A stretch of 41,635 bases of DNA, taken from the IMG/VR virus record IMGVR_UViG_3300010375_000030, positions 1 to 41,635 of that record. One strand, given 5' to 3'. Both the position numbers and the translations under genes were made by a program. Every line of letters begins with the position of its first letter. Positions within the stretch are counted from its first letter, which is position 1. The stretch comes from a virus. A model generated the notes under the pieces. That model saw nothing but the letters and a program-made list of their open reading frames with translations, had not been told where the DNA came from and ran no database searches. Below, piece after piece: positions 2,535 to 37,568 of this stretch.

Positions 2535-2539
2535 CCGTC

Positions 2540-4057: not shown

Positions 4058-4059
4058 CC

Positions 4060-4809
4060 ATGCCGCCCGTCTCGTTCATCGAAGCCACCGGCCTCTCCGA
4101 GTTGACCGCATCGACGTTCGGCGGTGCCACGCCGGCGCACGCGCGGACCGGCGACGTGCTGCTTGCCGTCGTCGGGTGCTACGACTCGCGCGACTGGAAC
4201 CAGGCGACCGTTGGCCCGATCGTCGCGTCCGGGATCACGTACACGATCGACGCGACGCGATGGTCGATGTTGTCGCGTCAGGTTCTGACATCTGGCGTTC
4301 TGATGCTCATGCGGCACATCGTCGACGACACGGAACCAGGAGCGTGGGCATTCGGGCTGACTCTCGCGAGCACGAAGAAGCTCCAGGGCGCGCTCCTGCT
4401 CTATCGCGGCGTGGACAAAGAGTCGGCGATCGGTAGCACGTCGATCGCCACCGTGACCTCTGCTGCGTCTGTCCTGTTGCCGTCGAGGACGCTCGCGAAG
4501 TACTCGGACCTCTACCTCGGCGCCGCGTACTGCGTGACCAGCAACCCGGCGCAGTCGTCGGTCCAAGCGTCGGCGCGCTACACGGCGCAGGATCCAGGCG
4601 GCACGTCGTCGATCGGCGTGTTCGACTACCGCCCGGACGTCGCCGGCGCTACAGGATCGGTGAGCACTGCCGCGGCGACATCGCAGACGTTTCGTGTCGC
4701 CTCGTGGTCGCTGTCGTCGGACGCGGTTCCGGTTCCGAACGGTCTAGATCCAGGCGTGACGCCAGGCTCGATCGGCTTCTTCGGACCGACGCTCGCGGAT
4801 CCGACGTAG
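4060..4809 (+). CDS. Hypothetical virion/tail protein
   Basis: 249 aa, predicted beta-rich, with a segment (TGDVLLAVVG) seen in many secreted or virion beta-sandwich proteins and a low-complexity Ser/Ala/Thr middle. It follows the baseplate J gene by 2 nt, and GAGG upstream of the ATG is a usable ribosome site. Its position between gp47 and gp48 homologues suggests an inserted baseplate or fibre accessory protein. I do not recognise the family. Confidence 0.65.
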   Translation: MPPVSFIEATGLSELTASTFGGATPAHARTGDVLLAVVGCYDSRDWNQATVGPIVASGITYTIDATRWSMLSRQVLTSGVLMLMRHIVDDTEPGAWAFGLTLASTKKLQGALLLYRGVDKESAIGSTSIATVTSAASVLLPSRTLAKYSDLYLGAAYCVTSNPAQSSVQASARYTAQDPGGTSSIGVFDYRPDVAGATGSVSTAAATSQTFRVASWSLSSDAVPVPNGLDPGVTPGSIGFFGPTLADPT

Positions 4810-4812
4810 TCT
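4807..4812 (+). promoter_or_regulatory. TAnnnT box (TAGTCT) before 4819 gene
   Basis: TAGTCT ends 6 nt before the ATG at 4819. Its TAG is also the stop codon of the preceding gene. The gene has no Shine-Dalgarno sequence, so the box may be a -10 element for a leaderless transcript. Confidence 0.4.
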
Positions 4813-4818
4813 CGCAGT

Positions 4819-6798
4819 ATGACGGATCTGATTCGCGTGCTCGTGCGGTTCGAGGAGCCGGTGGATACCGCGTTGTCCGACGAGGCCGGTGGTCTGCTGC
4901 CGCTCGTTCCTGCGATCGATCCGGACACCACGGCGACGGCGCCCGGTATCGCGGGCACAGCTCGCGTATTCGACGCGTCCCTACCCTGTCAGCCGTTCGT
5001 CGCCCAGGATGCGGTCGTGGGAGCCTCGCTGCTAAACCGTGACGTAACGGTTCAAGCGATCATTGCGTGGGATCTCGCCAACTGGCCAGGTGCCATGAAT
5101 CCTCAGGGGCTGATCGCGCGCGGGAAGGGAGACGTAGTCGCGGAGTACTCGCCGTTCGTGATCAACCTGGAGGTGGTCGACGCAGCCACGTCGATCGGGC
5201 GCGTGTTCATGTCATGGAACGACTCAACAGGCGCCGAGGTGGCGGACGTCGGCGCGGACTTCGTGGTGCCCAGCTCTGACATCTTCGCAGGGTCGCTCCG
5301 CTTCTTTCTTCTGACGAGCGTGCGCCATTGGGTCTCGTCGACGGAGAGCGTCGTACGTCACTACGTGAACGATCGGCTCATCGCGGACAACGTTGTTGCA
5401 AGCGGAAATATCGCAGGCTCGACGACGGGGACCACGTCGATCGGATCGCGATTCGTCGGTGGCACGTTCGACAACAACGGATTCAACGGCGCGATCGACG
5501 AGATCATGGTCACGGACTACGAGATGTCGCCCGAAGAGATCCAGGCGACGTGGCTCCGGTTGTCGCTGTATCAGCCCGATGGCTATCGGCAGATCCGCGA
5601 GGCGATGCAGCCAGGCCTGATCGGCGACGTGATCAGCGACGATCCGCAGTCGGGCGCGCAGCAAGATCTGCGATCGATCGGCGTGCTCGCTGGTCTTGGT
5701 GATGCGCTCGTCGAGAACATGCGCGCGAACATCATGCCGGACCGAGCGTACGGTCAGGTGCTCCGGCGCTGGGAGCGCGTGCTTCGTGTGCCCCCTGGAC
5801 CGTCGGACTCGATCGACCAGAGACGCGCCCGCGTGATGGGGCAGATCGGCAAGCGCGCAGGCATCTCGATCCCTGGCGTCGACGCGGCGATCGCGCCCGT
5901 GCTCGTGAAGGCCGACAAGACACAGCTCCAGCACATCGCGTTCTCGAACACGATCCAAGACACGTGGGCGACGCTCGACGCGCAACGGTGGTTCACGGAG
6001 GCCGAGTCGCCATTCGTGAGCTGGGCCGCGACGGGGACGCAACTCCGGTTCCAGATGAACGCGGCCTCGAACTACACCTATTCTGGCGCCCGGCCAGCGA
6101 GCGGATACTTCCTGCGATGCCTCACACCGAACGATGGATCCGCAGCGTCGGTCGCGTTCGCGAAGGTGATCCCGACGTCGCTCCCTACCAACCTGGAGAT
6201 CGGGATCTGTTTCTTCTCGTGGGTCGATTGGAGGACGTTCCTGCTCGGCGTGCGGAACAACGGCGGCGCGATCGAGGTGGTGTATCAGCGCTACCAGCGA
6301 GGAGCGGCAGTCGATGGCGCATCAGTCGTGCTCGCGACAACCTCTGCGGTTCCACACTGGCTCCGGATCCGCGATCAGCGACTCGTCAGTGGCTCAGCTC
6401 CATTCAGCGTCGGAGCGATCGACGACTCCAAGTACTCCGTGTCGTATTCGACGGTGGGATCCAGCGAGGCTCAGCTCGTGACAACGCCTGACCTCGAATG
6501 GGCGGCTGACTTCACCGAGATGGGATTCTATGCGCGCACGCTCGGGCCGACTGGAGGAGCGAGCGACATCCGCTTTGACCCGTCGTCGCTATTCCGATCG
6601 GGGCGTGGCCGGCGGCCGTTCGTCGCCTACGTGTACAGAGATCCAGCGCTACCTGGCCTGCCGGATGTCGTGGGAGCAAACGGCGTGATCGGCCGGATGA
6701 AACATGCCTACACTCGCGTGGCCGTGACGACCTCGAAGTCTTTTCTTTGCGACTCGTCGCGCTCGCTGTGCGATCGCGACCCGATGGGAGCGATCTGA
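4819..6798 (+). CDS. gp48/DUF2313-like baseplate protein fused to LamG-type domain
   Basis: 659 aa, far longer than Mu gp48. Residues about 1-250 look like a concanavalin/LamG beta-sandwich (a pattern ending NGAIDEIMVTDYEMSPEEI). Residues about 290-355 match DUF2313: LPDRAYG-like entry, RWERVLRVPP, then a QRRARVMGQI helix and a G-I-S-I-P segment. A further beta domain follows. DUF2313 proteins cap the baseplate wedge, and the LamG part may bind carbohydrate. It starts after a TAnnnT box with no Shine-Dalgarno sequence. Fusion of a putative glycan-binding domain onto gp48 is unusual but fits host-surface recognition. Confidence 0.7.
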   Translation: MTDLIRVLVRFEEPVDTALSDEAGGLLPLVPAIDPDTTATAPGIAGTARVFDASLPCQPFVAQDAVVGASLLNRDVTVQAIIAWDLANWPGAMNPQGLIARGKGDVVAEYSPFVINLEVVDAATSIGRVFMSWNDSTGAEVADVGADFVVPSSDIFAGSLRFFLLTSVRHWVSSTESVVRHYVNDRLIADNVVASGNIAGSTTGTTSIGSRFVGGTFDNNGFNGAIDEIMVTDYEMSPEEIQATWLRLSLYQPDGYRQIREAMQPGLIGDVISDDPQSGAQQDLRSIGVLAGLGDALVENMRANIMPDRAYGQVLRRWERVLRVPPGPSDSIDQRRARVMGQIGKRAGISIPGVDAAIAPVLVKADKTQLQHIAFSNTIQDTWATLDAQRWFTEAESPFVSWAATGTQLRFQMNAASNYTYSGARPASGYFLRCLTPNDGSAASVAFAKVIPTSLPTNLEIGICFFSWVDWRTFLLGVRNNGGAIEVVYQRYQRGAAVDGASVVLATTSAVPHWLRIRDQRLVSGSAPFSVGAIDDSKYSVSYSTVGSSEAQLVTTPDLEWAADFTEMGFYARTLGPTGGASDIRFDPSSLFRSGRGRRPFVAYVYRDPALPGLPDVVGANGVIGRMKHAYTRVAVTTSKSFLCDSSRSLCDRDPMGAI

Positions 6799-7304
6799 TG
6801 GCCCTTCCGAGTTCACGCAACACGACGTACACGCCGGGCTCGACGGTGCTCGCGGCGGACCTCAACGCCCTGCAGGACTGCGTCATCGGCGGGAAGCTCG
6901 CCCCGACGACGATCGAGATCGGAGGGATGGCGTGGACGCCGGCGGCTGCTATGACGCCGTTCTACTCTCTCGTCGGCGGACTCGAAGGACCGATCTTCAA
7001 CGCCTTTTGGGCGCTCCCATTGCCGATCGGTGTTCGCATTACGGCTGTACGCTGGTACGTCCGAGACAACGTTACCGGGCCAACGACGTTGCAGGCGTTC
7101 TTTGGCTACGGCAATCGCGCCGGCGTGCAGACGATCGTGTCGACGTCGGCCGTATCTGCAGGGACGGCCGCGAACCAGACGCTCTCGGTCGCGCCGAACC
7201 ACACGATCACGGCGGGTAGAAGCTACGGCCTGATCGTCAACACAGCCGCTGGATCAGCGTCGTGTCGCCTCTACGGCGCCGAGATCGACATCGACAGGCT
7301 CTGA
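6798..7304 (+). CDS. Hypothetical virion-associated protein
   Basis: 168 aa. The ATG at 6798 overlaps the upstream stop (TGATG), so it is preferred over an in-frame start 51 nt earlier inside gp48. The N-terminus (TTYTPGSTVLAADLNALQD) matches a short segment often found at the head of phage tail or fibre accessory proteins. The remainder looks like a single beta-sandwich. Probably an exposed virion decoration or fibre component; no firm family. Confidence 0.65.
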   Translation: MALPSSRNTTYTPGSTVLAADLNALQDCVIGGKLAPTTIEIGGMAWTPAAAMTPFYSLVGGLEGPIFNAFWALPLPIGVRITAVRWYVRDNVTGPTTLQAFFGYGNRAGVQTIVSTSAVSAGTAANQTLSVAPNHTITAGRSYGLIVNTAAGSASCRLYGAEIDIDRL

Positions 7305-7319
7305 TCGAAAGGGATCGCC

Positions 7320-7787
7320 ATGGAGCTAATCTCAGCACTGGTACAGAACGAAAGCACCCGCGCCACCGTCGGCGCGCGACCCACCACGCTAGCGCACGGC
7401 GTCGATCTCACGGCCGCTCGACAGGGCGCGTTCTCGTTCTCGTCGATGCTCGTGCACATCGTTGCCGGCCCAGGCGCCGGGGTGTTCACCGATGCGGACA
7501 CGACGATCGCTGGACCTGGCGGCGCGTCGGGCGGGCTCGGCGTCGAGGTGTGGATGCTCAAGCGATCGAATAGCGGTCCGCTCGGCACGAGCACGAAGTA
7601 CATCTGGGAGCTGACCGGCTACCTCAACGGTGGCGCGGCGGTGCCCGTGCTCTCCGGCTACGGCACGTCGTACGTGATCACGGCCGGCACGATCGGTGAG
7701 CGGATCGCGATCGCCGGCCTACCTGGCGCAGGGACGCCACAGTACTACGTCGAGCCGATCGAGCGCTCCGTTTCCGAGCTGCGGTAG
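7320..7787 (+). CDS. Hypothetical virion-associated protein
   Basis: 155 aa, rich in Gly, Ala and beta-branched residues, with no membrane segment. AAAGGGAT upstream of the ATG is a good ribosome site, unlike several neighbours. Lies among tail and fibre accessory genes on the same strand. Family not recognised. Confidence 0.65.
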   Translation: MELISALVQNESTRATVGARPTTLAHGVDLTAARQGAFSFSSMLVHIVAGPGAGVFTDADTTIAGPGGASGGLGVEVWMLKRSNSGPLGTSTKYIWELTGYLNGGAAVPVLSGYGTSYVITAGTIGERIAIAGLPGAGTPQYYVEPIERSVSELR

Positions 7788-7802
7788 TGCACACTCGGGT
7801 GC

Positions 7803-8423
7803 ATGCAACAGGTCAAGCAGGGCGAGGCGACGGCCACCCGTAAGCGGCTCTGGTTCGACTGCCTCGACGCGACGGTTCCGAACCTCTACCTCAACATTGC
7901 CGCGATCGGCTTCGTCGTCACGGTGTACGTGATCAAGGCCGACGGATCGGTGGTGCTCGGCGTTGGCGCCGTCGTGCAACCCGACCTGGTACACGCGCCT
8001 GGCGCTGGCTACTACGTCCCCGACGCGACCGAGATCGACACGCTCGGCGTCGCACGCTTCGTGATCACCGGGACGGGCGCAGGTCAGACGATGCTGCGTC
8101 GCGACGTCGACGTGTCCGTGGTCGCGTTCGATCCGTACCTGCAGTCGTCGCAGTCGATCAGCGTCGGCGACATCTCGTCGATCATCGTCGAGGGGCCCGA
8201 TCAGATCGACGGCGGCGGCGAGACGCAGACGCCGGTGGCAACGCCGGCGACGAACGTAACGCTGGTGCAGATCCTTCGAGAGATCTGGGCGGGTGTCGTC
8301 GGGGATGCCGTCGGTCTCAAGGGCACCGTGGCGCAATTCAAGTCGCGCGCTGGCGGGCGCAATCGAGCTGTCGCGCAGTTGAACAACGGCAACCGTACCG
8401 CGACGTCACGAGACGGGTCATGA
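7803..8423 (+). CDS. Hypothetical tail accessory protein, BppU-like N-terminus possible
   Basis: 206 aa. Residues about 15-115 read like the small beta-sandwich at the N-terminus of upper-baseplate/receptor-binding proteins (VTVYVIKADGSVV, then APGAGYYVPDATEID). The C-terminus has a basic, Asn/Arg-rich tail. The start lacks a Shine-Dalgarno sequence; CACACT lies 7 nt upstream. Structural role inferred from context only. Confidence 0.6.
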   Translation: MQQVKQGEATATRKRLWFDCLDATVPNLYLNIAAIGFVVTVYVIKADGSVVLGVGAVVQPDLVHAPGAGYYVPDATEIDTLGVARFVITGTGAGQTMLRRDVDVSVVAFDPYLQSSQSISVGDISSIIVEGPDQIDGGGETQTPVATPATNVTLVQILREIWAGVVGDAVGLKGTVAQFKSRAGGRNRAVAQLNNGNRTATSRDGS

Positions 8424-8626
8424 CGAGGGCCAAGGGTAAGACAGAGGCGCCGATAGACGCCGTGCGCGAAGAGGCCTACACGCAGGGCTTCGTTGCCGGT
8501 CGTGGCGGTCATGAGAAGTTCACGGACGATGAACTTCTCAAGGTGGCGACCGAAGCACAGCGCGCCTACGACGCCTGGCGAAAAGCGCGACGAGCGCACG
8601 CCCAGGGATCTCGACCACTCAGATGA
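8420..8626 (+). CDS. Small hypothetical protein
   Basis: 68 aa, charged and mainly helical. The start overlaps the upstream stop as ATGA, so it is translationally coupled. Family not recognised. Confidence 0.5.
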   Translation: MTRAKGKTEAPIDAVREEAYTQGFVAGRGGHEKFTDDELLKVATEAQRAYDAWRKARRAHAQGSRPLR

Positions 8627-8638
8627 CCTCGGCGGGGC

Positions 8639-8644
8639 TATCCT
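8639..8644 (+). promoter_or_regulatory. TAnnnT box (TATCCT) before 8652 gene
   Basis: TATCCT ends 7 nt before the ATG at 8652, with no Shine-Dalgarno sequence between them. Candidate leaderless promoter. Confidence 0.45.
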
Positions 8645-8651
8645 TCGGGCC

Positions 8652-9248
8652 ATGTCCGAGAAGCCACGCTATCCGACGCCGGCGAGCGGCGTAGCACCAC
8701 GAAAGCCACCGCCACGCGCGAGCACCGGGACCGAGCTGATCGGCGAGACGTTCGGAGAGCGTGAGCCCACGGCAGTCCGCGAGATCCGCGAGTCGAAGGA
8801 GGATCGCCAGCGGCTCGCCCGACTGTCACAGGGATACGACAAGCTGATCACCGAGACGCTCCCACAGCTGTCCTCGAAGATCGGTGAGACGCAGGTCGGG
8901 ATCGCCGAGGTCAAGGGCAACGTCGAGGGAATCCAAGGCGTCGTCGAGGCGATCAAGGAGATCAATGATCGGCAGACCGGCCTGCTCGATCGGCAGACTG
9001 GTCTGCTCGAAAAGGCGCTCGGTGCGCACGTCGACACGACGCTCTTGGTGAACCACGCGAATATCGACCTCGGGCGCAAGCGCGCGGAGACCGAGATGGG
9101 CGAGCAACAGGCGACGGCCGCACTCCAGCGCCAGGAGCTACAGCTCGCGTCGGCGCTCAAGCGAGACGCGATCCGCACGGCCATCAGCTGGCTATTCGGC
9201 GGCGCAGGGCTGACCGCAGCGATCGCGTATCTTGTGCAGCACTGCTAG
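8652..9248 (+). CDS. Coiled-coil protein with C-terminal membrane anchor
   Basis: 198 aa from the ATG at 8652. A Pro-rich N-terminus is followed by a long coiled coil (about residues 40-165) containing a tandem DRQTGLL repeat, then one C-terminal hydrophobic segment (about 175-195). This is the topology of XhlA/haemolysin-type lysis accessory proteins, although it is longer. It lies 1.3-2.2 kb before the candidate holin and endolysin, which supports a lysis or membrane-associated role. No enzymatic motif seen. Confidence 0.6.
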   Translation: MSEKPRYPTPASGVAPRKPPPRASTGTELIGETFGEREPTAVREIRESKEDRQRLARLSQGYDKLITETLPQLSSKIGETQVGIAEVKGNVEGIQGVVEAIKEINDRQTGLLDRQTGLLEKALGAHVDTTLLVNHANIDLGRKRAETEMGEQQATAALQRQELQLASALKRDAIRTAISWLFGGAGLTAAIAYLVQHC

Positions 9249-12273: not shown

Positions 12274-12557
12274 TGTGATCCTCCGTCGGTAGTGGTGCAT
12301 GGTGCGGCGCAGAACACGAAGGGGCATCGGCCCTCGACGACCTCACGATGCGCGAGCACACCGCACGCGTTCGTCCAGTCGTTCGCGATCTGCGCCATGG
12401 TCGCCGCGGTCGTGTCGTCGAAATCGATCAGCTCGCCGGTGCCCTGCGGTCCGCACGCCCAGATGAATTCGCATGTCCAGGAGCGCGGACCCTGCGGATC
12501 GGGTGGCGCCCCAAGGCACCCGACGAGCGCAAGCAGAAGCACGGCGCGCGTCGTCAT
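12270..12557 (-). CDS. Small Cys-containing lipoprotein
   Basis: 95 aa. MTTRAVLLLALVGC is a complete lipoprotein signal with the lipidation Cys at 14. The mature part has five further Cys, suggesting disulfides outside the cytoplasm. GAGGT precedes the ATG. It overlaps the next gene by 4 nt. A phage lipoprotein in a non-virion operon is a candidate superinfection-exclusion or host-surface factor. Confidence 0.65.
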   Translation of the reverse strand: MTTRAVLLLALVGCLGAPPDPQGPRSWTCEFIWACGPQGTGELIDFDDTTAATMAQIANDWTNACGVLAHREVVEGRCPFVFCAAPCTTTDGGSQ

Positions 12558-12760
12558 CGCCACACCTCGCGCCAGAACGCTTCGGTTTGCATCCTGTCGG
12601 TGTCGATCGCCTCGGGCTCCGGTGGCGCGATGGCGGCGGCGATCTTCTCTCTCAGGGACTGCCGTGCGCCGTACGCGCGACGCGGCTCGGGCTCGCGCAT
12701 CGACCAGCGATCGGCGAGCGGCTCGGCGTGGCGGCCAGCTCCTGCCCTGCGCCACCTCAC
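12554..12760 (-). CDS. Small hypothetical protein
   Basis: 68 aa. The GTG at 12760 overlaps the upstream stop (GTGA), implying translational coupling. Basic N-terminus, Pro/Glu-rich middle, acidic end. Not recognised. Confidence 0.45.
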   Translation of the reverse strand: MRWRRAGAGRHAEPLADRWSMREPEPRRAYGARQSLREKIAAAIAPPEPEAIDTDRMQTEAFWREVWR

Positions 12761-12969: not shown

Positions 12970-12982
12970 GATGATCCTTGTA

Positions 12983-12991
12983 TCGGTCGGT
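12983..12991 (-). repeat. Leader repeat TCGGTCGGT, copy 1
   Basis: Plus-strand TCGGTCGGT followed by CGTCG after 2 nt, located 14 nt upstream of the minus-strand start at 12969. Related copies precede 15219 and 17281. Confidence 0.4.
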
Positions 12992-13003
12992 CGCGTCGAT
13001 TGA

Positions 13004-13378
13004 TCAGTTGTTGGTGGGGTAGCTGGGGAAGTCGTTCGTCACGGACCACACGTCGAGAGAAAGGCGCCATCGGCCGATCGCGTCCTCCGGGATCGAGCAC
13101 CAGGCCGCGCCGTCCGTCGTCATGCGCATCCCGGTGACCACGACGGTCCCGACGATCACGTGTCCGTCGGTGGGCCGGCGCACACACGGAAGCTTGTCGG
13201 GCTTGAGCAGGCCTTCCTCGTCGCACCACATCGCGCACCACACGGTGTCACTCGGTCCCTCTCGGTCGTTGAGCGCGACCTCGACGTAGCCGCCGATCAC
13301 TGCCTGCATCGTTTCGAGTGACTCGCCGATCTCGGCACGTTCGGCGAGCTGGCCCGGGCGTTTGATCACGACGATCAT
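13004..13378 (-). CDS. DUF3846-like protein
   Basis: 124 aa. The N-terminus (MIVVIKRPG), the LETMQAVIGGYVEV helix-strand and the late GHVIVGTVVVTG segment are the pattern of DUF3846, a small protein family common on phages and plasmids with no established activity. The start overlaps the upstream stop as ATGA. Confidence 0.65.
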   Translation of the reverse strand: MIVVIKRPGQLAERAEIGESLETMQAVIGGYVEVALNDREGPSDTVWCAMWCDEEGLLKPDKLPCVRRPTDGHVIVGTVVVTGMRMTTDGAAWCSIPEDAIGRWRLSLDVWSVTNDFPSYPTNN

Positions 13379-13533
13379 CGACGTGCCAGCTCCTCGATCG
13401 CCTCGGCGACTCGCACGATGGAGTGGTCGATCTTGCGGAGGGTGTCGTTGATCTCGACGAGGAACGTCGAGATCCGACTGACTTGACTGTCGAGAATCCG
13501 CTCTAGACTCGCTGGTTCGTTTCGTTCGAACAT
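13375..13533 (-). CDS. Small coiled-coil protein
   Basis: 52 aa from an ATG preceded by GGAG. Predicted as one amphipathic helix (heptads from about residue 15). Coupled by ATGA to the DUF3846 gene. Not recognised. Confidence 0.5.
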   Translation of the reverse strand: MFERNEPASLERILDSQVSRISTFLVEINDTLRKIDHSIVRVAEAIEELARR

Positions 13534-13590
13534 GATCACTCCATGGGTGGATAGCGTTCTCATTCAGGTCGGGATCGCTACTTCCCGACG

Positions 13591-13619
13591 ACACACGGCG
13601 AGATGACGGCGCCGTGTGT
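13591..13619 (-). terminator. Perfect 10-bp hairpin between minus-strand genes
   Basis: ACACACGGCG, 9-nt loop, CGCCGTGTGT: a perfect inverted repeat just after the stop of the Toprim gene on the minus strand. Stable and GC-rich but without a T-tract, so it may be a pause, processing site or protein-binding site rather than an intrinsic terminator. Confidence 0.45.
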
Positions 13620-13635
13620 TTCGCCCACCCCTGGG

Positions 13636-17356: not shown

Positions 17357-17524
17357 CTATCCCCGCTCGACCACCACCGCCTGTCCGCTCATCCGGCAGT
17401 GCATCTCGGCGATCTCGATCGCCTCGGCCTTCGGGCCTTCGATTCCCTCGAAGAGGCGGGTGCCATCCGCGCGGTCGATGTTCCAGGTTCCGATCTCCGA
17501 CTTGGTGAGTTCCGTGTTTGCCAT
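17357..17524 (-). CDS. Small protein under operator-like promoter
   Basis: 55 aa: begins MANTELTKSEIGTWNIDR and ends VVVERG. Clean alpha/beta composition, in contrast to the Arg-rich frames overlapping it. Its ribosome site is poor. A promoter (TTGTGT, 17 nt, TACCTT) and a CAAG-N7-CTTG site lie upstream, so it is probably independently repressed by the HTH regulator. Function unknown. Confidence 0.55.
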   Translation of the reverse strand: MANTELTKSEIGTWNIDRADGTRLFEGIEGPKAEAIEIAEMHCRMSGQAVVVERG

Positions 17525-17533
17525 CTTGATAAC

Positions 17534-17562
17534 AAGGTACGGCCATTCTTAGAATCACACAA
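17534..17562 (-). promoter_or_regulatory. Promoter before 17524 gene
   Basis: Minus-strand -35 TTGTGT (17562-17557) and -10 TACCTT (17539-17534), spacer exactly 17 nt. The -35 lies in the left half of operator O3, as in the recT promoter. Confidence 0.5.
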
Positions 17563-17574
17563 GGGGCGATCTTG
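17560..17574. promoter_or_regulatory. Operator O3 (CAAG-N7-CTTG)
   Basis: CAAG GGGCGAT CTTG, with arms extended to ACAAG/CTTGT. Read on the minus strand the ends are CAAGAT and CTTGTG, identical to O1. Confidence 0.55.
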
Positions 17575-17581: not shown

Positions 17582-19006
17582 TTACAAGTTCGCGAAACCG
17601 CAGGAGCATTGGGAGCCTCGAATCCAGATTGAGCAGTCGCTCTCGTGACCCGGAGTGTCGTGCGGCAACGGCGGTAGGTCGGGCTCAGGCTGATCGAGCG
17701 GCGGAACCGTCGGCTCCGGCAGCTCCGGCAGGGACTTGCGTAGCTGGTCGGCGATCCGCTCGGCCAGCTCGCGCTCCTCTGTGGAGTTTACGTCTGCCGG
17801 CTTCTCGCCGACGGGGAGCGAGAACACAGTAGGGCCGGTGTTCAGCTTGCGGTGCACGTGACCCGAGGCGCGCAGCTCGTCGAGAACTTTGCGCATGGCC
17901 GCGGCCTTCTGTCCTCGCGGCACGGCGGCCTTGATCGCGGCGTCGAGCTTCTTCTTCGACGAAACGACCTCGGTCGCGGCCGTCGCTGCTTCGTCTCCGT
18001 ACTCGCGCGCTACGACGTCGTACACGGCCTCGCCGTCGAGCTTCTCATTGCCGTCGCGGATCAGGCGACCGATCCAGCGCTCGCTCTTGCCGTCCGGCTC
18101 CAGCCCGAGCGATACCGTGCGCTGCGCCGCGATACCCCACAGCTTGGACTTCGCGAACTTCAGTGCAGACTCCGCGCGCTCGATGTCCTCGTACAGCTCC
18201 GCGAGCGCCGAATCCGGGATCGGACTCATTCGCATGATCCCGTCGAACGTGTCGCCGGCGATTAGCGCGCGAATCTGTGACGTCTGCGCTGGGCAGAACT
18301 CGCGCGCCGAGCACCCATCACACCACGGACCGGTCGAGTACTCGCGCGGCATGTCACCGCCGAGCACGCGAGCGCGCAGTGCCTTCCATCTCGCGTGATG
18401 CTCGCGCAGCTCGTCACGGTAGAAGTCCAACTCCCATCGCTCGTACACGATCCGCTGCACGTACGGGGGGAGATCCTCGTGCACGTGGATCAGCTGGCCG
18501 TCGACGACATCACAGTCGTACGCGCGCGAGATGCACAGCGCGCCGAATGCGATCTGATCATTGCCGGCGATCTTTCGGGCGCGCCAGCCTGACTTCCAGT
18601 CCGCGTAGAACCCTCGCGTGATGTCGCTGATCTTACGAACGCCGACGACATCGAGCGTGCACGGCACCTCGTCGATCCCGACCGTATCGTAGGCGCGCCC
18701 GACGCCACGCCCAAGCTCACGGCACGTGTCCGTCTCCAGGTTGTAGGCGAAGGCGATCTCGGCGCCGAGTGACAGCTGCGCGTCGAGGCCTTCTAGGTTC
18801 AAGTTCTCACATGCTTCGCGGTACTCGTCTGGCATGGCGGCCAGCGCGGTCTCTCGATCGAAGTTCACGACGGCTTCGAGAAATTCGTGAAGTACCGTAC
18901 CGCGCTCGGTCCATTCGGTCTGATGGTTCGCGTGCGGCAAGGCGACCGACAGCGCGCACCGCTTCGCACGCTCGATCGCGCTCCCGCTCGACAAGAATTC
19001 AGCCAC
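17582..19006 (-). CDS. Cas4/RecB-type PD-(D/E)XK nuclease with Fe-S cluster motif
   Basis: 474 aa, GTG start with GGGGG upstream. Motifs: GTVLHE (H40, E41), TLDVVG (D119), YADWKSG (D136, K138) and a downstream Q151, the PD-(D/E)XK core. Cys17 plus C229, C232 and C238 (CDGCSAREFCPA) give the four-cysteine pattern that holds an Fe-S cluster in Cas4 and AddB. The C-terminus is Pro/Glu-rich with a CSIWIRGSQCSC tail. It resects DNA ends to give single strands for the adjacent RecT. It overlaps the neighbouring small gene by 8 nt. Confidence 0.8.
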   Translation of the reverse strand: MAEFLSSGSAIERAKRCALSVALPHANHQTEWTERGTVLHEFLEAVVNFDRETALAAMPDEYREACENLNLEGLDAQLSLGAEIAFAYNLETDTCRELGRGVGRAYDTVGIDEVPCTLDVVGVRKISDITRGFYADWKSGWRARKIAGNDQIAFGALCISRAYDCDVVDGQLIHVHEDLPPYVQRIVYERWELDFYRDELREHHARWKALRARVLGGDMPREYSTGPWCDGCSAREFCPAQTSQIRALIAGDTFDGIMRMSPIPDSALAELYEDIERAESALKFAKSKLWGIAAQRTVSLGLEPDGKSERWIGRLIRDGNEKLDGEAVYDVVAREYGDEAATAATEVVSSKKKLDAAIKAAVPRGQKAAAMRKVLDELRASGHVHRKLNTGPTVFSLPVGEKPADVNSTEERELAERIADQLRKSLPELPEPTVPPLDQPEPDLPPLPHDTPGHESDCSIWIRGSQCSCGFANL

Positions 19007-19231: not shown

Positions 19232-20344
19232 CTATCGCCCCCTTGTCGGCTGCGGCATGAGCTTGATCCACAGCGCGCGCAGCTCGCCATCTAGCGACGC
19301 GATCGCCCGGTCCATCGCGTCGGCGATCTCCGGTTGCTTCGCGAGCCGCTTTTTCGCGATCGACACGGCATCGCCGACCTTCTTGAGATCGTCGCGCGAC
19401 ACCGCCTTTGCCATCATCGTGCGCAGGCCGGCGAGGTCAGCTTGCTGTTCCTCGGTCAGCGCATCTGGCGCAGGAACTCGCGGCTCCGTCCGGGGCTCGG
19501 CCGAATCGATCGGCGCATCGACACGCTCGCTCGGACGCTCGGGCATGACGCGCGAGAGCTGGGCGACGTCGGGCGCAGCTGGCTTCGCGACCTCACGCGC
19601 GATCTCTGCGTCGCGCGCCAGCTCTCCGATCTTGGCGGTCGCCGACTCGCCTTGCTGCGGCGGTAGCGGCGGTGCCGAGAACGCAGCGACGGCGGATGAT
19701 GCGGCTGCGTCGACGTGCTCCATTTCGGCGTCGATGCGAACTCCGGCGAAGAGACCAGGGAAGCCCTTTCGGAATGCGAGCGCCTCGACGCATTTTTCGA
19801 TCTGCGCAACGCCTCGCTTCGCCCACATCTCAGGCACGTACGATCCGGTCTTGGTCTTGTAGACTGGGCAGTACTCGCGGAACAGACCGACAGCGACGAT
19901 GGGCGTCTTGCGGCCCTTGCGGTACAGCGTGATCCGACACGCGTGCGGCGGCTTCTCGTCGAGCCATACGAGGTACTCCTTGCCGACGTTGTCGATCCAA
20001 ACGGTCGGATCCTGGCCATCCATCTCGCCGGAGCGCTCCGCGATCGCCCGGTAGCCGTCAATGCCGGTCTCGGGCCTACCGACGTCGATCCATTCGTCGT
20101 CGCCTCGCTCGTTCTGGCGCTTCTGCTTGCGCTTGACGAACCAGATCTGTCGAGCGAACGGATCGAGGTCGAGCCGTCGCGCGGTGGCGAGAAAGAATTC
20201 AAGCTCAGGGTCGGTCGCGCCGACACAGATTGCGTTTCGCATCACGTCGACCTGTGGTTCGGTCAGGCCGTATTGCTGTGATAGGTACTTCGTGCGCTCG
20301 GCGCGAGCGATCGCATGTTGCTGTGGGGTCAGTGCTGTGGACAT
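19232..20344 (-). CDS. recT: RecT-family single-strand annealing protein
   Basis: 370 aa from ATG 20344, the start supported by a leaderless-type promoter upstream. RecT core: IxVGATDPELEFFLATARRL, DPFARQIWFVKR, GIDGYRAIAERS, PPHACRITLYRKGR, EMWAKRGVAQIEKCVEALAFRKGFP and a FAGV end at about residue 200. The remaining third is low-complexity and helical. Pairs complementary DNA strands; works with the downstream nuclease in phage recombination. First gene of the leftward operon. Confidence 0.9.
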   Translation of the reverse strand: MSTALTPQQHAIARAERTKYLSQQYGLTEPQVDVMRNAICVGATDPELEFFLATARRLDLDPFARQIWFVKRKQKRQNERGDDEWIDVGRPETGIDGYRAIAERSGEMDGQDPTVWIDNVGKEYLVWLDEKPPHACRITLYRKGRKTPIVAVGLFREYCPVYKTKTGSYVPEMWAKRGVAQIEKCVEALAFRKGFPGLFAGVRIDAEMEHVDAAASSAVAAFSAPPLPPQQGESATAKIGELARDAEIAREVAKPAAPDVAQLSRVMPERPSERVDAPIDSAEPRTEPRVPAPDALTEEQQADLAGLRTMMAKAVSRDDLKKVGDAVSIAKKRLAKQPEIADAMDRAIASLDGELRALWIKLMPQPTRGR

Positions 20345-20351
20345 GGGCCAC

Positions 20352-20380
20352 AGCGTTACCACGAGAGTCTGACGTCACAA
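20352..20380 (-). promoter_or_regulatory. recT promoter
   Basis: Minus strand: -35 TTGTGA (20380-20375), 17-nt spacer, -10 AACGCT (20357-20352), then 7 nt to the ATG at 20344, so the transcript is probably leaderless. The -35 overlaps operator O1. Confidence 0.55.
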
Positions 20381-20392
20381 GCTGGCATCTTG
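20378..20392. promoter_or_regulatory. Operator O1 (CAAG-N7-CTTG)
   Basis: CAAG CTGGCAT CTTG. Overlaps the -35 of recT (20375-20380) and the -35 candidate of the HTH gene (20390-20395). Its centre is 27 bp from the O2 centre. Confidence 0.6.
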
Positions 20393-20418
20393 CTTTCGTG
20401 CGAGCAAGGTACTAGCTT
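20390..20418 (+). promoter_or_regulatory. HTH-gene promoter
   Basis: -35 TTGCTT (20390-20395), 17-nt spacer, -10 TAGCTT (20413-20418), then 6 nt to the ATG at 20425. No Shine-Dalgarno sequence, consistent with a leaderless transcript. Confidence 0.5.
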
Positions 20419-20419
20419 G
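20405..20419. promoter_or_regulatory. Operator O2 (CAAG-N7-CTTG)
   Basis: CAAG GTACTAG CTTG, arms extendable to GCAAG/CTTGC. It covers the -10 of the HTH gene, so binding would block that promoter. Confidence 0.6.
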
Positions 20420-20424
20420 CGTTC

Positions 20425-20640
20425 ATGCCGAAGATCAGACCGCCCAAGGGGGCGAACGCATTCTGGCGCTGGATCGACCGCGAGAAGGTCAAGATGGAGC
20501 CGCTCGCGAAGCGCCTGCGCGTAACACCTCAGCACCTCAGCGAGGTCAAGCGCGGGAACACGATGCCGAGCCTGGCGCTCGCGCAACGCATCGCGAGGCT
20601 CACCAAAGGCGAGGTCGACGCGAATAGCTGGGCGCCATGA
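20425..20640 (+). CDS. Cro/CI (YdaS-like) HTH regulator
   Basis: 71 aa, the size of a Cro-like repressor. The helix-turn-helix is PLAKRLRVTPQHLSEVKRGN (about residues 26-45), followed by PSLALAQRIARLTKGEV as the packing helix. It probably dimerises on the CAAG-N7-CTTG sites next to it and regulates both its own gene and recT. The start has no Shine-Dalgarno sequence; O2 ends 5 nt before it. No longer CI-like partner is seen in the window. Confidence 0.8.
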   Translation: MPKIRPPKGANAFWRWIDREKVKMEPLAKRLRVTPQHLSEVKRGNTMPSLALAQRIARLTKGEVDANSWAP

Positions 20641-30413: not shown

Positions 30414-30617
30414 ATGTCCAAGACGAAGAACGGCGAGCGAGCGCCAAAGCGAAACATGCGCGCGCTGGTCGAGAAGCTCCATGCCGCCAGCGATGCGCTG
30501 ATCGTGCAAGCATACGCGGTCGTGGGCGCGGAGGCCGGCGATGACACCGCGAAGGAAGAAGCGGAGCTGCGCGTTCTCGCGCTCGCGTACGCCGATGCGG
30601 TCGAGGCGCTGTCGTGA
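30414..30617 (+). CDS. Small helical protein
   Basis: 67 aa, AAGGAGAG before the ATG. Basic N-terminus then two helices. GTGA-coupled to the HNH gene. Not recognised. Confidence 0.5.
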   Translation: MSKTKNGERAPKRNMRALVEKLHAASDALIVQAYAVVGAEAGDDTAKEEAELRVLALAYADAVEALS

Positions 30618-30988
30618 AGCGCTCGCCGCCCAAGCGCTCGAAGTCGATGCGTCGGCTCACTCGCTCAACGAAGTACTCGCGACGCAAGCGAGGCACCGAG
30701 TACATGCGGTGGGTCAAGACGCTGCCTTGCGTGCTGGCGGGCGTAGCGTCGGCAGGCGTGTGCGACGGTCCAGTAGAGGCCGATCACGCGGGCTCGCGTG
30801 GCGTCGGTCAGAAGGCGCCAGACAGCACATGCATCCCGTTGTGCTCGAAGCATCACCGCGATCGAACCGATATGCGCGGCGCGTTCGGCGCATTCTTCGC
30901 TCGCGAAATGCGGTCGTGGTGCGACGCGATGATCACGCGAACGCAGGAGACCGCGAGGCTGCGCGGGATCGAAGTGCCGTCATGCTGA
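30614..30988 (+). CDS. HNH/DUF968-like nuclease
   Basis: 124 aa, GTG start overlapping the upstream stop. Basic N-terminus, then LPCVLAG with CDGPVEADHAGSRGVGQ, then IPLCSKHHRDRTD: His in DHAGS and the H-H-x-D-R of the second half fit an HNH/His-Me finger endonuclease of the DUF968 type found beside phage recombination and replication genes. Likely structure-specific or nicking; the target is unknown. Confidence 0.7.
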   Translation: MKRSPPKRSKSMRRLTRSTKYSRRKRGTEYMRWVKTLPCVLAGVASAGVCDGPVEADHAGSRGVGQKAPDSTCIPLCSKHHRDRTDMRGAFGAFFAREMRSWCDAMITRTQETARLRGIEVPSC

Positions 30989-31032
30989 TCCAATCCCCGA
31001 AGGATGCGGAGCGACCGGAGGTGCCGTCATGA
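30982..31032 (+). CDS. Possible 16-aa peptide
   Basis: Begins at an ATG overlapping the HNH stop region, ends EVPS then a TGA overlapping the next ATG. The closing GAGGTGCC doubles as the ribosome site for the next gene. Low confidence. Confidence 0.2.
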   Translation: MLIQSPKDAERPEVPS

Positions 31033-32399: not shown

Positions 32400-32930
32400 G
32401 TGGATGGCTCCGAATCGACCAAAATGAGCGAGTCGGCGACGCCTGGTCACTCTCGGCACCGACGAGCACGGAAGCCGTCGCGCCCGAAGGCGAGGCGACC
32501 AGCGAAAACGAAGCGCCGGCGACGTGGCCGACCTCGCAAGATCAAGCCCGCGCCACGCGCCGACGTGTTCGCAGCGCTCGCCGAATCACTTGCCGGGATC
32601 GATTGGGACGATCCGGTTCAGCGCGACAACGAGATCGGCAAGGCGATCGGAAAGATGATCGTGCTCGTCGCGTCAACGCCCGACATGACGCACGCCGAGC
32701 GCACGCGGGTGCAGACGATCATCAACCTGGCGGCGCAGCTCAAGTCGTTCCGCGACGTCGACGGCATGACGGCCGAGATCGAGCGGCTCAAGGCGAAGCA
32801 ACGCGCAGCGATCGGTGGGCCAGCGGGGCCGACGCTCGAACCACGACGCCATGACCCTGGTACCCAAGACGGCGCGGAGGCAGAGCCGCTCCGCGGGCGG
32901 CCGCGTCGGACCGGACTCGTTCGAGCTTGA
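32400..32930 (+). CDS. Candidate small terminase subunit with AT-hook
   Basis: 176 aa from GTG 32400 with GGAGG upstream (ATG 32424 possible). Residues 19-50 are highly basic and include RGRPRK (42-47), a canonical AT-hook minor-groove binder. The rest is helical (FAALAESLAGIDWDD, then TPDMTHAERTRVQTIINLAAQL), like small terminases, and it lies directly before the large subunit. It should select the packaging site; the AT-hook suggests AT-rich target DNA, which lies immediately upstream. The C-terminus overlaps the large subunit. Confidence 0.6.
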   Translation: MDGSESTKMSESATPGHSRHRRARKPSRPKARRPAKTKRRRRGRPRKIKPAPRADVFAALAESLAGIDWDDPVQRDNEIGKAIGKMIVLVASTPDMTHAERTRVQTIINLAAQLKSFRDVDGMTAEIERLKAKQRAAIGGPAGPTLEPRRHDPGTQDGAEAEPLRGRPRRTGLVRA

Positions 32931-34464
32931 GGTCCATTTTTGGGACGAGACGTCAGGGCGGCGGCTCGGGATGTTCGGCGGCCGGTGGGATCCCGAGTTG
33001 CACTGCTACACGGGCGACGCCGCCAAGACGCTGAATCTCGCCTTCCACCCCGGTCAGCTCGATGCCGTCGAGGCCTTCGTGGACTGGCTGCGCGGCTACC
33101 TGCGTGGCGACGTGCCGCCCAGCGAGAAGATCTACGACATGATCATGGCGGGCGGCCGACGCGGTGGAAAGTCGGCGACGCTCTTCGCTTGCGTCGTCGC
33201 GTTCGCTCTCGCGGTGCCGAGTGCCAACATCGTGATCCTCGTGCCGTCGGAGAGCTTCCTGGCCGAGCCGATCGCGTACCTGCAATCGATCATGCCGGAG
33301 GAGTGGTACTACCAGCTCAACGCGCCGCACTGGTCGTTCACGCTGCACAACGGAAGCACGATCCGGATCGTGCCCGGTCACTCGCCGCGGTTGATGAAGC
33401 AGGGCCGCGTTGACCTGATCGCGATCAACGAGGGCCAGTCGATCCCGGTGCAGAGCTACACGCACGCGTCGGCTGGCATCGTCGACAGCGGCGGCATCAT
33501 CCTGACCGCGGCGAACCCGCCAGACGTCGGCGACGTTGGCGAATGGGTCGTCGATCTCGCGATGGGTGCCGAGCGCGGCTCGCTACCGAACGCGCGCTTC
33601 TTCTTCTTCGATCCAGAGAACAACCCGCACATCGATCAGCACGCGCTGCGGGCGATGGCGCTCAAGATGGATCAGCACACGTACGACGTGCAGATCCGCG
33701 GCATGTTCCTCAACCGCCCGGACACGGTGCTCCACACGTGGGACCGCCGAGAGAACGAGCGGCCGATGCCACAACTCGGCGACTGCACGCGCGAGTTCCT
33801 CAAGTACTACGAGGGCTGGGCGCTCACCGATATCGGCGCCGTCGACGTGCAGAACTTCCCGTGGATCGCGGCGACGCGCTTCCGTGCGTTCCGTGATCAC
33901 CTCGCGCCCGACGACATGGACAAAGCGTTGCTGTGGGGCATCGGCGAGGCCTTCATCGACCAGGGCGACGAGATCCAGTGCGCGCGCCAGCTCAAGAGCG
34001 ACGGTTGCGATCCCGGATCCACGCTGATGGTGATGGACGCGTCGTGCGACTGGCAACAGATGGAGCGCCAGGAGGGCAAGCAGCGCGACCGATTCAAAGG
34101 CGCGGGCTCGATGGACATGTTCCGCGCCGAGGGCTTCCGCTACGTCGTGCCGCCCGATCGTCAGATGGAGTCGAATCCGAACGTGTCCGATCGCGTGCGG
34201 GCGGCGAACGCGCGGATCTGCTCGGCCTCGAAGGTGCGACGCGTGTTCGTGGATCCGAGTCGGTGCCCGCGGACCGTCGACTCGATCAGGAAATGGAAAA
34301 CGAAGCCGGATGGCACGCCGTCGCGGAAGTCGCGGTTCGCGCATGCCGGCGACGTCGTGAGCTACGCGGTCTGGCGCTTCTTTCCGCGGCGCTCTGACAA
34401 GACGGAGATCAACGTGGAGACGATTAAGCGGTTCGCCGGTCGCGATCGTGTGCGAGGTTACTAG
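32851..34464 (+). CDS. Terminase large subunit
   Basis: About 537 aa (ATG 32851; GTG 32815 possible). Walker A GGRRGGKSA, a Walker B-type segment LIAINEGQ with the catalytic Glu, coupling motif LTAANPPD, then an RNase H-like nuclease domain with VMDAS, FVDPSRCP and SRFAHAGDVVSYAVWRF providing acidic residues. It powers DNA translocation and cleaves the concatemer. The atypical Walker B (NE in place of DE) is worth noting. Start choice uncertain because it overlaps the small-subunit gene. Confidence 0.9.
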   Translation: MTLVPKTARRQSRSAGGRVGPDSFELEVHFWDETSGRRLGMFGGRWDPELHCYTGDAAKTLNLAFHPGQLDAVEAFVDWLRGYLRGDVPPSEKIYDMIMAGGRRGGKSATLFACVVAFALAVPSANIVILVPSESFLAEPIAYLQSIMPEEWYYQLNAPHWSFTLHNGSTIRIVPGHSPRLMKQGRVDLIAINEGQSIPVQSYTHASAGIVDSGGIILTAANPPDVGDVGEWVVDLAMGAERGSLPNARFFFFDPENNPHIDQHALRAMALKMDQHTYDVQIRGMFLNRPDTVLHTWDRRENERPMPQLGDCTREFLKYYEGWALTDIGAVDVQNFPWIAATRFRAFRDHLAPDDMDKALLWGIGEAFIDQGDEIQCARQLKSDGCDPGSTLMVMDASCDWQQMERQEGKQRDRFKGAGSMDMFRAEGFRYVVPPDRQMESNPNVSDRVRAANARICSASKVRRVFVDPSRCPRTVDSIRKWKTKPDGTPSRKSRFAHAGDVVSYAVWRFFPRRSDKTEINVETIKRFAGRDRVRGY

Positions 34465-34466
34465 CG

Positions 34467-35843
34467 ATGGTGCCTGTTCACTCGCTTGCCGGAACCGGGA
34501 TGGAGATGCCGTCACCGACGAGGCTCGGTCGGCCCTACAAGCCCTGGCGCATGACCGATGGGATGTCGCTTCGCCCCGGCTATCACCTCACGCCTCAGAA
34601 GATCGTCGCGGCGTTTCGTCAGGCCGAGATGGGCGAAATGACGATGCAGAGCGATCTTTTCGAGGACATCGAAGAGAACGACGGCCACCTACGCTCGCAG
34701 TACGAGGCGCGGCTCGAAAAGGTTGCGTATCGGCCTTGGTTCCTGAAGCCCGGCGGCAAGGATGCGCTGTCGATCGAGTGCGCGGCGCGGCTCTCCGAGG
34801 CGCTCAAGAGCTGCAACGTGATGGATGCGTTGTGGCACCTGCTCGAAGCGATCGGTCATGGCTTCTCGTTGATCAACACGGCGTGGCGGCTCGACGAGAC
34901 CGATATGACGATCGTGCCGTACTGGTTCCTTCGTGCTCCGCATCGGCGCTGTCGCTTCGACGAGTCAGGAACCGGACCGATCTTGTTCCGCACCGAGCAA
35001 AACCAGTACCCCGGCGAGCCGATCATTCCAGGGCAGTTCATCCTCGCGTATCGGATCCATCGACTGCTTGCGCGCGCTGGCGCGTTTCGCACCACGACGT
35101 GGTGGGCCTACTTCAAACGGATGAGCGTCGCCGACTGGATCGTGTTCGCCGAGAAGTTTGGGATCCCGTACGTGCTCGGCTACTACCAGGAGAACGCGAG
35201 CGACGAGTCACGTGCTGCGCTCCTTCGTGCCGTGTCGGAGATCGGAAGCGACGGCCAGGCCGTTTTGTCGAAGGCTACCGACATCGTGGTCAAGTCGGAG
35301 GCCGTGCGCGGCGGCGATCTGTCGTCGCTGCACCCGATGATCGCGCAGATGTGCAACGCCGAGATCTCGAAGGTGATCACGGGCTCGACGCTGACGACGG
35401 ACAACGCCGGCGGCAATGGCTCCTATGGCCTCGGCAAGGAGCATGCGAACGTCGCCGGCGCACGCGTGCTCGGTGACGCGTTCTGGATCGGCGAGGTGAT
35501 GCGGATCGGGCTGATCCGACCGTTCATCGACGCGAATCCGCGGTTCGCGAAGGCGCGATCGCCCGAGTTCATGATCCGCCTGCAACCCGATCAGACCGGA
35601 CTACAGAAGGCAGAGACGTACGAGAAGCTCCAGGCGATGGGCGTCGATATCGAGGGCGAGCAGATGTACGAGGAATTTGGCTTGCGGCGTCCAGAGGCGG
35701 GTGATGCACTCAAGCCGATCTATGACGCTACTCCACCCGGACCGACGTCTCTTGCTCCCTCGCACCCTCGCGGCCGTTTCCTCAGCGACGCCGACCTTGC
35801 GCGGCTCGAAGCTCGGCTCTCGGCCGTCGAAAGCCGATCTTAG
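34467..35843 (+). CDS. Portal protein (DUF935, Mu gp29-like)
   Basis: 458 aa. DUF935 features: LRSQYEARLEKVAYRPWFL, YRIHRLLARAGAFRTTTWWAYFKRMSVADWIVFAEKFGIPYVLG, and an AEISKVITGSTLTTD segment. Forms the dodecameric portal at the capsid vertex. Starts 2 nt after the terminase stop; the next gene's likely start lies inside it. Confidence 0.9.
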   Translation: MVPVHSLAGTGMEMPSPTRLGRPYKPWRMTDGMSLRPGYHLTPQKIVAAFRQAEMGEMTMQSDLFEDIEENDGHLRSQYEARLEKVAYRPWFLKPGGKDALSIECAARLSEALKSCNVMDALWHLLEAIGHGFSLINTAWRLDETDMTIVPYWFLRAPHRRCRFDESGTGPILFRTEQNQYPGEPIIPGQFILAYRIHRLLARAGAFRTTTWWAYFKRMSVADWIVFAEKFGIPYVLGYYQENASDESRAALLRAVSEIGSDGQAVLSKATDIVVKSEAVRGGDLSSLHPMIAQMCNAEISKVITGSTLTTDNAGGNGSYGLGKEHANVAGARVLGDAFWIGEVMRIGLIRPFIDANPRFAKARSPEFMIRLQPDQTGLQKAETYEKLQAMGVDIEGEQMYEEFGLRRPEAGDALKPIYDATPPGPTSLAPSHPRGRFLSDADLARLEARLSAVESRS

Positions 35844-37062
35844 TCATCTGCACCGGTTCGCGACGACTACCCCGCGCGATGACTTCGCGCTCTACACGGG
35901 CGGCTCGGGCTCGCCGATCACGGCGGGCGAGCGTGCCGATCTCCTCAAGGCCGCGCGCGCTGGCGAGGTGATCGAGCTGGAGCTGGAGGCCGACACGTTC
36001 ATTCAGCGCGACGAGCCGAACCGGAACTTCGTCCGCTTCAAGCCCGGCATCATGGCGACGTTCGCGAAGTCGTTCGAGGGCCAGCCCGTGTTGCGCGACC
36101 ACAACTCGTACGAGCTGCTTGCGCGCGGCGGCACGATTCGGGCGTCGAAGCTGATCCACAACGAGGACGGATCCAAGACGATCCGTATGCGACTCCGGCT
36201 CGTGAAGCCGTGGGCGGTCGAGGCCGCTCTTGACGGCACGCTCGATCGCTTCTCGATCGGGTGGTCGCGAGGAAACTCCACAGTCGAATGTTCGATCTGC
36301 GAAGCCGACTGGATGAAGTGCTCGCACTATCCCGGAGACAAGGTCGAAGGGCAGGTGATGCAGCTCGTTTTCACGGGCGCGACGGGCACCGAAGTCTCTG
36401 CCGTGAACGTTCCGGCGGTGGTCGGGACCGGTATCTCTTCGATCTCGCAGCTGTCTACGCTTGACCCGGCGGTGCTCACCGATATCCTCGATTCACTGCC
36501 GGGAGTGCCGGCGGTCCACAAGGAAAGCGAAATGGACCCGAAAATTCTTGAAGCTCTCGGCCTCCCCTCCAACGCCACAGCGGCCGACGTCGCCGCGGCC
36601 ATCGCTGCACAGAAGTCGCAGCTCGCGATCGCCACGGAAGCGAACGCGGCCAACGCAGCCGCCCTCGCGAAACAGGCGATCGCCGACGAGACGCGTCGTC
36701 TCGCCGAAGAGACCGCGACGATCGAGGATCGCATCACGCGACTGATCGCGACCGGCAAGATCGCCCCTAAGGGCAAGGGCGAGGAGTCGCTACGCGCGAC
36801 GGCGAAGCTCTCGTTCGCCGCGTTCAAGGGCGTTGCTGACGAGATGCTCGCGAACGGCCCACAGGTGACGCCGGCGGGCGCGCCGCTCCCAGCGCTCACA
36901 GCGGACCCCGCGCCCTCGTCGCTTCCGAGCGGCAAGGCCTTTCTCGCGTCCAATCCCGTCGCGGCGAGCTGGCTCAAGACGGCCGGGGTCACCGAGGAGC
37001 AATTCGAGAAGCACGGAGCCGGCGCGCGCGAGCGCATCGAGTTCATGCAGGCGAATCGCTAA
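35722..37062 (+). CDS. Prohead protease with scaffold C-terminus (Mu gpI-like)
   Basis: 446 aa from ATG 35722, inside the portal gene in another frame. The start is uncertain; a later non-ATG start is possible. Residues about 50-245: PVLRDHN (H127) and LDRFSIGW (S178) as expected for a prohead serine protease, then a Cys-His group (CSICEADWMKCSH). The remaining half is helical and Ala-rich like the Mu I/Z scaffold. It trims the scaffold inside the prohead. See the nested scaffold. Confidence 0.75.
   Translation: MTLLHPDRRLLLPRTLAAVSSATPTLRGSKLGSRPSKADLSHLHRFATTTPRDDFALYTGGSGSPITAGERADLLKAARAGEVIELELEADTFIQRDEPNRNFVRFKPGIMATFAKSFEGQPVLRDHNSYELLARGGTIRASKLIHNEDGSKTIRMRLRLVKPWAVEAALDGTLDRFSIGWSRGNSTVECSICEADWMKCSHYPGDKVEGQVMQLVFTGATGTEVSAVNVPAVVGTGISSISQLSTLDPAVLTDILDSLPGVPAVHKESEMDPKILEALGLPSNATAADVAAAIAAQKSQLAIATEANAANAAALAKQAIADETRRLAEETATIEDRITRLIATGKIAPKGKGEESLRATAKLSFAAFKGVADEMLANGPQVTPAGAPLPALTADPAPSSLPSGKAFLASNPVAASWLKTAGVTEEQFEKHGAGARERIEFMQANR
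36532..37062 (+). CDS. Nested scaffold protein (Mu gpZ-like), internal start
   Basis: 176 aa in frame with the protease. AAGGA lies 7 nt before the ATG (MDPKILEALGLP), much better than anything at the protease start. In Mu the scaffold Z is made from an internal start in gene I; the same layout here suggests a separate scaffold product. The sequence is coiled-coil and Ala/Glu-rich. Confidence 0.6.
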   Translation: MDPKILEALGLPSNATAADVAAAIAAQKSQLAIATEANAANAAALAKQAIADETRRLAEETATIEDRITRLIATGKIAPKGKGEESLRATAKLSFAAFKGVADEMLANGPQVTPAGAPLPALTADPAPSSLPSGKAFLASNPVAASWLKTAGVTEEQFEKHGAGARERIEFMQANR

Positions 37063-37100
37063 CCACTCTCCACTCAACTCCGACGACAAAGGACTAGATC

Positions 37101-37568
37101 ATGGCTGCACTGACTGGAGAGCGCGACACGCCAAAGCGCCTCACTGACTTCGTGTACGTGTACAAGCAGGCGACGCTCACCACGATTCGTGGCGGTGGCC
37201 TCGTGAACACGAACGCGGCCGGCTACGCGGTTCCCGCGAGCGACACCGCAAACCACAAGTGCGTCGGTCGCGCGAACGCGACTCGCGACACCACCGCCGC
37301 TGGACCGGATGGCGTTCTCGCCGATGGTGTCGCCGGCAAGCTCTCCGGTGACGGCGTCGAAGTCGACATCGGAATTTTCCAGTACGACAACCCGGCCACC
37401 GCGAACCAGCTCACGCAGGCCGACATCGGCAAGCTCTGCTACGTGCTCACCGATCACGAGGTCACTCGTGCCGCGGGCACCACGAACTCCGTGATCGCTG
37501 GCAAGGTGCTGGAGGTCGATGTGGTCGCTAACACGGCGTGGATCGATGTCCGCGTCAAGGCCGTCTAA
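37101..37568 (+). CDS. Capsid decoration/cement protein
   Basis: 155 aa with AAGGA before the ATG. A beta-rich domain with KQATLTTIRGGGLVNTN, then GVLADGVAGKLSGDG, matching the small head-stabilising proteins located between protease and major capsid protein in Mu-like phages. Two Cys only. Confidence 0.7.
   Translation: MAALTGERDTPKRLTDFVYVYKQATLTTIRGGGLVNTNAAGYAVPASDTANHKCVGRANATRDTTAAGPDGVLADGVAGKLSGDGVEVDIGIFQYDNPATANQLTQADIGKLCYVLTDHEVTRAAGTTNSVIAGKVLEVDVVANTAWIDVRVKAV

Follow-up and report, generated by a model that had tools for sequence, protein, structure and literature searches.

Layout and promoters of the early region

The window analysed here is the whole of the viral record IMGVR_UViG_3300010375_000030, 41,635 bases from a phage (called G000 here) that we have from IMG/VR sequence only. 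Structural genes stand at both of its ends, tail genes on the left and terminase, portal and capsid genes on the right (1-9000 and 32815-41500), and given this split the record probably represents a circular or permuted genome that was cut inside the structural module. Two long stretches free of called genes (12328-12756 and 12970-13635) separate the late region from the leftward arm. The early arms diverge at 20345-20424, an 80-bp gap between recT and the gene of a 71-aa helix-turn-helix (HTH) protein; the leftward arm carries recT, an exonuclease-like gene and a topoisomerase-like gene, and the rightward arm the HTH gene, a helicase-loader-like gene and a RusA-like gene (Table 1). The sole close relative found, IMGVR_UViG_3300025924_000037 (G001), has an HTH protein 97% identical and a RecT 83% identical to those of the window. 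Searches of viral contigs with the HTH protein, RecT and the exonuclease found nothing beyond G001, and a search of genome contigs and plasmids with the HTH protein gave no match.

Table 1 Features of the early control region (window coordinates)
Feature	Position	Strand	Remarks
Cro/YdaS-like HTH protein, 71 aa, presumed ligand	20425..20640	+	PF01381 E=8e-7; phrog_35 transcriptional repressor; four-helix model, pLDDT 81
RecT/Bet-type single-strand annealing protein, first leftward early gene	19232..20344	-	PF03837 E=7.8e-19; phrog_2780 E=8.7e-43
Exonuclease-like gene, recT arm	17582..19006	-	phrog_69 E=4.5e-12
55-aa ORF of unknown function behind O3 (17524 gene)	17357..17524	-	no PHROGs match
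O1 (ACAAGCTGGCATCTTGC with flanks)	20378..20392	.	exact dyad; identical in G001
O2 (GCAAGGTACTAGCTTGC with flanks)	20405..20419	.	exact dyad; identical in G001; 5-N7-5 form as in homologous cro operators
O3, between exonuclease gene and next leftward gene	17560..17574	.	exact dyad; arms kept in G001
HTH promoter	20390..20418	+	TTGCTT 20390-20395, 17 nt, TAGCTT 20413-20418, 6 nt, ATG 20425
recT promoter	20352..20380	-	TTGTGA 20380-20375, 17 nt, AACGCT 20357-20352, 7 nt, ATG 20344
17524-gene promoter	17534..17562	-	TTGTGT-17-TACCTT, 9 nt to ATG 17524

A sequence-only reading of the gap had described two exact CAAG-N7-CTTG dyads with centres 27 bp apart, O1 and O2, whose coordinates we could verify. 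The centre of O1 lies at -40 from the HTH start codon and at -41 from that of recT, and the centre of O2 at -13 from the HTH start codon; a further site, O3, is centred at -43 from the start codon of the 17524 gene. Both -35 elements that O1 had been said to overlap, TTGTGA of recT and TTGCTT of the regulator, stand, and the coordinates bear out that O2 covers the regulator's -10, TAGCTT. Of the claim that both promoters have 17-nt spacers and reach the ATG in 6-7 nt, the distances hold as read and the recT -10 is uncertain: AACGCT is weak, with 2 of 6 consensus bases, and the alternative TAACGC, read with a 16-nt spacer, brings no improvement. The minus-strand pair TTGCTC/CAGCTT is a further candidate for recT, which would go with a leader of 20 nt or more. 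None of the three promoters is called in a sigma-70 consensus scan, and the -35 and -10 hexamers are weaker than those of the homologues (TTGCTT versus TTGAC). The recT promoter stretch is unchanged in G001, where the -10 of the 17524-gene promoter reads TATCTT.

In all three promoters the CTTG arm provides the TTG of the -35 element, at 35 nt (HTH), 36 nt (recT) and 38 nt (17524 gene) before the AUG. Since a -35 hexamer usually begins about 36 nt before the transcription start, this geometry suggests that each of the three transcripts probably has its 5' end on the AUG or only a few bases away from it. A clear Shine-Dalgarno sequence is absent from all three genes, as it is from many phage genes, so that this absence is weak evidence for leaderless transcripts. 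For PY54, the cro and cI transcripts have been mapped by RACE and begin at the AUG (PMC4488713).

Occurrence and conservation of the CAAG-N7-CTTG sites

The motif search over the whole phage that had been proposed in the sequence-only reading found four exact CAAG-N7-CTTG sites in the window, against 0.17 expected from dinucleotide shuffles and 0.47 from word counts. Because the word was picked after the sequence had been seen, we ranked all 3584 dyads of the 4-Nk-4 form, among which it is the third most over-represented, the top row of this ranking being a rounding artefact from a zero expectation. Three of the four sites lie in noncoding DNA, which by our own gene calls makes up 7% of the window, against a noncoding expectation of 0.025, from which a value of about 0.005 follows after a rough correction for the post-hoc choice of the word; the same noncoding part holds no site with one mismatch. 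In shuffled noncoding DNA other, G+C-rich dyads also get to three by chance, and the site count alone is therefore not decisive. The two-operator account of the region is right for O1 and O2 and incomplete, the third candidate operator at 17560 having been overlooked. The fourth exact site (O4, 30715) was rejected as an operator: it lies inside an ORF (30541-31032), its conservation is that of a 97.6% identical region, and it is probably due to chance.

O1 and O2 are letter for letter the same in G001, and of the six differences between the two 80-bp gaps five fall between them; O3 has both arms intact there, with one inner base changed. Read from two sequences, the window and G001, this conservation is a stronger argument than the site count for the dyads being real.

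Two further kinds of repeat were seen. At 17525-17536 the half-sites recur in the short inverted repeat CTTGATAACAAG, which overlaps both the end of the -10 and the 17524-gene leader and differs in its middle in G001. In viral contigs, the double site CAAG-N7-CTTG-N12-CAAG-N7-CTTG occurs in 19 stretches, of which only G001 is related to the phage. In eight of them a tandem dyad of another kind lies next to a capsid-like gene, and the remaining unrelated ones look like chance or repeats, mostly within ORFs. Tandem dyads like CAAGTCCGTGACTTG, 27 bp apart, are found in the AT-rich viral contigs L017 (2439-2480), L019, L022, L025, L030, L033, L034 and L035, which are unrelated to this phage, and have there a major-capsid-like gene (PF25209 in L017) on one side and a neighbouring 236-aa or scaffold-like ORF on the other.

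The HTH protein, its homologues and the place of CI

No protein of the window or G001 other than the 71-aa one matches HTH_3 (PF01381, Cro/CI-type; 29.4 bits against a cut-off of 23), a domain that fills this small protein. The profile of its family matches 8co2 and 8c7k, the structures named antirepressor Cro, and its predicted model matches YdaS of the cryptic prophage CP-933P (8co2) with Z 7.5 at 30% identity; many HTH proteins give a similar Z, and the fold match therefore shows class only. With domain, family profile and structure-model matches in agreement, the earlier assignment to the Cro type holds.

Homologues of the protein, at 27-44% identity, were collected by alignment-based searches into a family of 30 non-redundant members, window and G001 included; members of known source are mostly alphaproteobacterial prophages or phages. 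Two Chlamydiota profile matches (L058 and L065), where the layout is absent, were omitted from the statistics. Start codons were chosen, with preference for ATG, from the alignment with the family model and are thus independent of the promoters. In 29 of the 30 members a TTGA or TTGC precedes the start codon by 35-38 nt, and an exact 17-bp palindrome of the 5-N7-5 form lies in the last 45 nt before the start in 16 of 30 (shuffle mean 0.84, maximum 4), several members being mutually close so that the counts are not all independent. The apparently leaderless arrangement that had been proposed for the regulator gene thus recurs, at predicted starts, across its protein family, and we predict near-leaderless transcription as a trait of these Cro/YdaS-like proteins.

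A second copy of the operator lies upstream in 10 of 17 members, with eight copies at -51 to -53 (shuffle maximum for this band, 2). The sites of the phage have the same form and lie at -13 and -40, those of most homologues at -17 and -52. O2 would represent the palindromic operator in the protein's own promoter, with the 5-N7-5 pattern of the family. Among the 24 members with a clear operator, the distance between operators tracks the distance between recognition helices once the rest of the protein is corrected for (partial Mantel, partial r 0.41, p 0.0002). That the HTH protein is the ligand had been offered as an inference; family palindromes whose letters track the recognition helix, together with the shared layout, now back it, and argue that the 71-aa protein is very probably the ligand of the dyads.

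The family also shows what usually stands across the gap. In seven of the seven homologues tested by Pfam, and by eye in most of the others, the divergent gene encodes a CI-like HTH protein, whereas in this phage it is recT. Neither a further HTH_3 match nor any Peptidase_S24 match was found in the window or G001, a result with which a repressor of an unknown family may still be compatible, and neither record, both of which may be incomplete, has a match to the tyrosine or serine recombinases (PF00589, PF00239) that would indicate an integrase. The description of the locus as a lambda-like circuit is therefore not supported as it stands: with recT divergent, and CI and integrase undetected, it corresponds to the Cro half of the lambda switch and not to a lambda-type lysogeny switch. 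The region is best read as controlled by Cro alone, an autorepressor that acts on two or three early promoters, and as incomplete for a lambda switch.

Proposed control and comparison with known systems

We consider it likely that the 71-aa protein is an autorepressor of the Cro/YdaS type, acting through O1, O2 and O3 on recT-exo, on its own operon and on the 17524 gene, with no CI. The basis is at the level of sequence, namely the sites, their conservation, the family layout and the covariation of helix and operator, and from it we infer dimer binding, the direction of regulation and the transcription starts. A dimer would bind the 17-bp operators GCAAG-N7-CTTGC at O1, O2 and O3; its presence at O1 would cover both divergent -35 elements, at O2 the -10 of the HTH gene's own promoter, and at O3 the -35 of the 17524 gene. 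With rising amounts of the protein, the leftward recT-exo transcription and the rightward transcription of its own operon, including the helicase-loader-like gene, would be shut down, with transcripts presumably beginning at or a few bases from the AUG. Such a shutdown would resemble the lowering of PL and PR by lambda Cro, but without an opposing CI.

One could also speculate, with some likelihood if not much, that the protein is a dual regulator, which activates the weak promoters from O1 (-40/-41) and O3 (-43) and represses its own gene at O2 once its level is high. The class II activator position is known from lambda CI at OR2 and from CRP, and repression of the own gene at high level from the C proteins of restriction-modification systems and from lambda CI at PRM. 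The centres of O1 and O3 indeed lie near -41 from the start codons, where activators also bind, all three promoters are weak by consensus, and the best Foldseek matches to the model include C.BclI and C.AhdI, though no E-value passes 0.001. Against this stands the Cro-like nature of the relatives, whose own promoters carry an operator near -17, and the HTH gene does not adjoin a methylase or endonuclease gene in the manner of the C proteins. In addition, the residue that we take to correspond to the activating Asp38 of lambda CI, by alignment to CI, is a lysine. It seems improbable, too, that the locus represents a virulent lineage in which Cro and its operators have been retained without CI, the recombination operon has been fused into the place of CI, and a single small protein works, according to its concentration, as a switch (activating at O1 and O3, repressing at O2) of three near-leaderless early promoters.

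It is very improbable that the sites are operators of a host protein or of another phage protein; their positions depart from the family norm, but helix and operator covary across the family, and neither phage has another HTH_3 match. Similarly improbable is that the dyads are a by-product of CTTG-containing -35 and -10 elements in back-to-back promoters with no bound regulator, for while the CTTG arm does form the first -35 bases in all three promoters and an arm of O2 lies inside a -10, in O2 and O3 the CAAG arm, which is the one facing away from the promoter element, fits no needed element and is nevertheless exact and conserved, and CAAG-N7-CTTG is in excess in noncoding DNA.

If the region is read as under Cro-type autorepression, several known systems come close to it. 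Lambda has its recombination genes in one early arm and its replication genes in the other, with operators inside the promoters. The control of PL and PR by Cro shares with the present region a Cro-type protein, these two kinds of arm and the placing of the operators, and differs in that here no CI is detected, there is no separate immunity region, and both early arms meet at one 80-bp region. The C proteins are autoregulatory HTH proteins with paired operators, their C-box sequences being unlike the sites described here. C.AhdI and C.BclI belong to the same fold class, whereas no restriction-modification genes adjoin the present locus, the nearest methylase-like ORF lying about 7 kb away at 27578. 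Paracoccus phage Pthi1 and Nostoc phage Nsp-JY21 (L013 and L011) encode Cro-like homologues that are 36-44% identical over the aligned part, from genes with the same distance between -35 and start codon; their divergent gene, in contrast, is CI-like, and their operator sequence is another one.

YdaS of CP-933P binds its own promoter region with footprints over both divergent promoters, and has been argued to be a Cro analogue (PMC8630535). Like the present protein it is a small HTH protein encoded first in an early operon, with operators that overlap divergent promoters, there in a 97-bp gap; its divergent partner, however, is the CI analogue PaaR2 with a toxin-antitoxin pair, and its operators are 18 bp long and of other sequence (PMC8630535). 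Since 8co2 is described as an N-terminal domain, YdaS also has a further part. The PY54 region has a leaderless cro mRNA and a palindromic Cro operator in the gap between the regulators, but there Cro binds a single operator, close to cI, and is not believed to repress its own gene, and CI is present (PMC4488713).

It is very likely that the small Cro-type protein controls the two divergent early gene sets through the short palindromic sites within their promoters. Such control is of a kind already known; the variant lies in the missing lysogeny repressor, with a recombination gene in its place. The phage, known only from IMG/VR sequence, offers a minimal early-control region, and near-leaderless cro promoters may be a trait of the whole Cro/YdaS-like family, in which operator letters that track the recognition helices would make operators predictable and checkable. 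It would also be an example of the way in which a Cro module may survive in the absence of CI.
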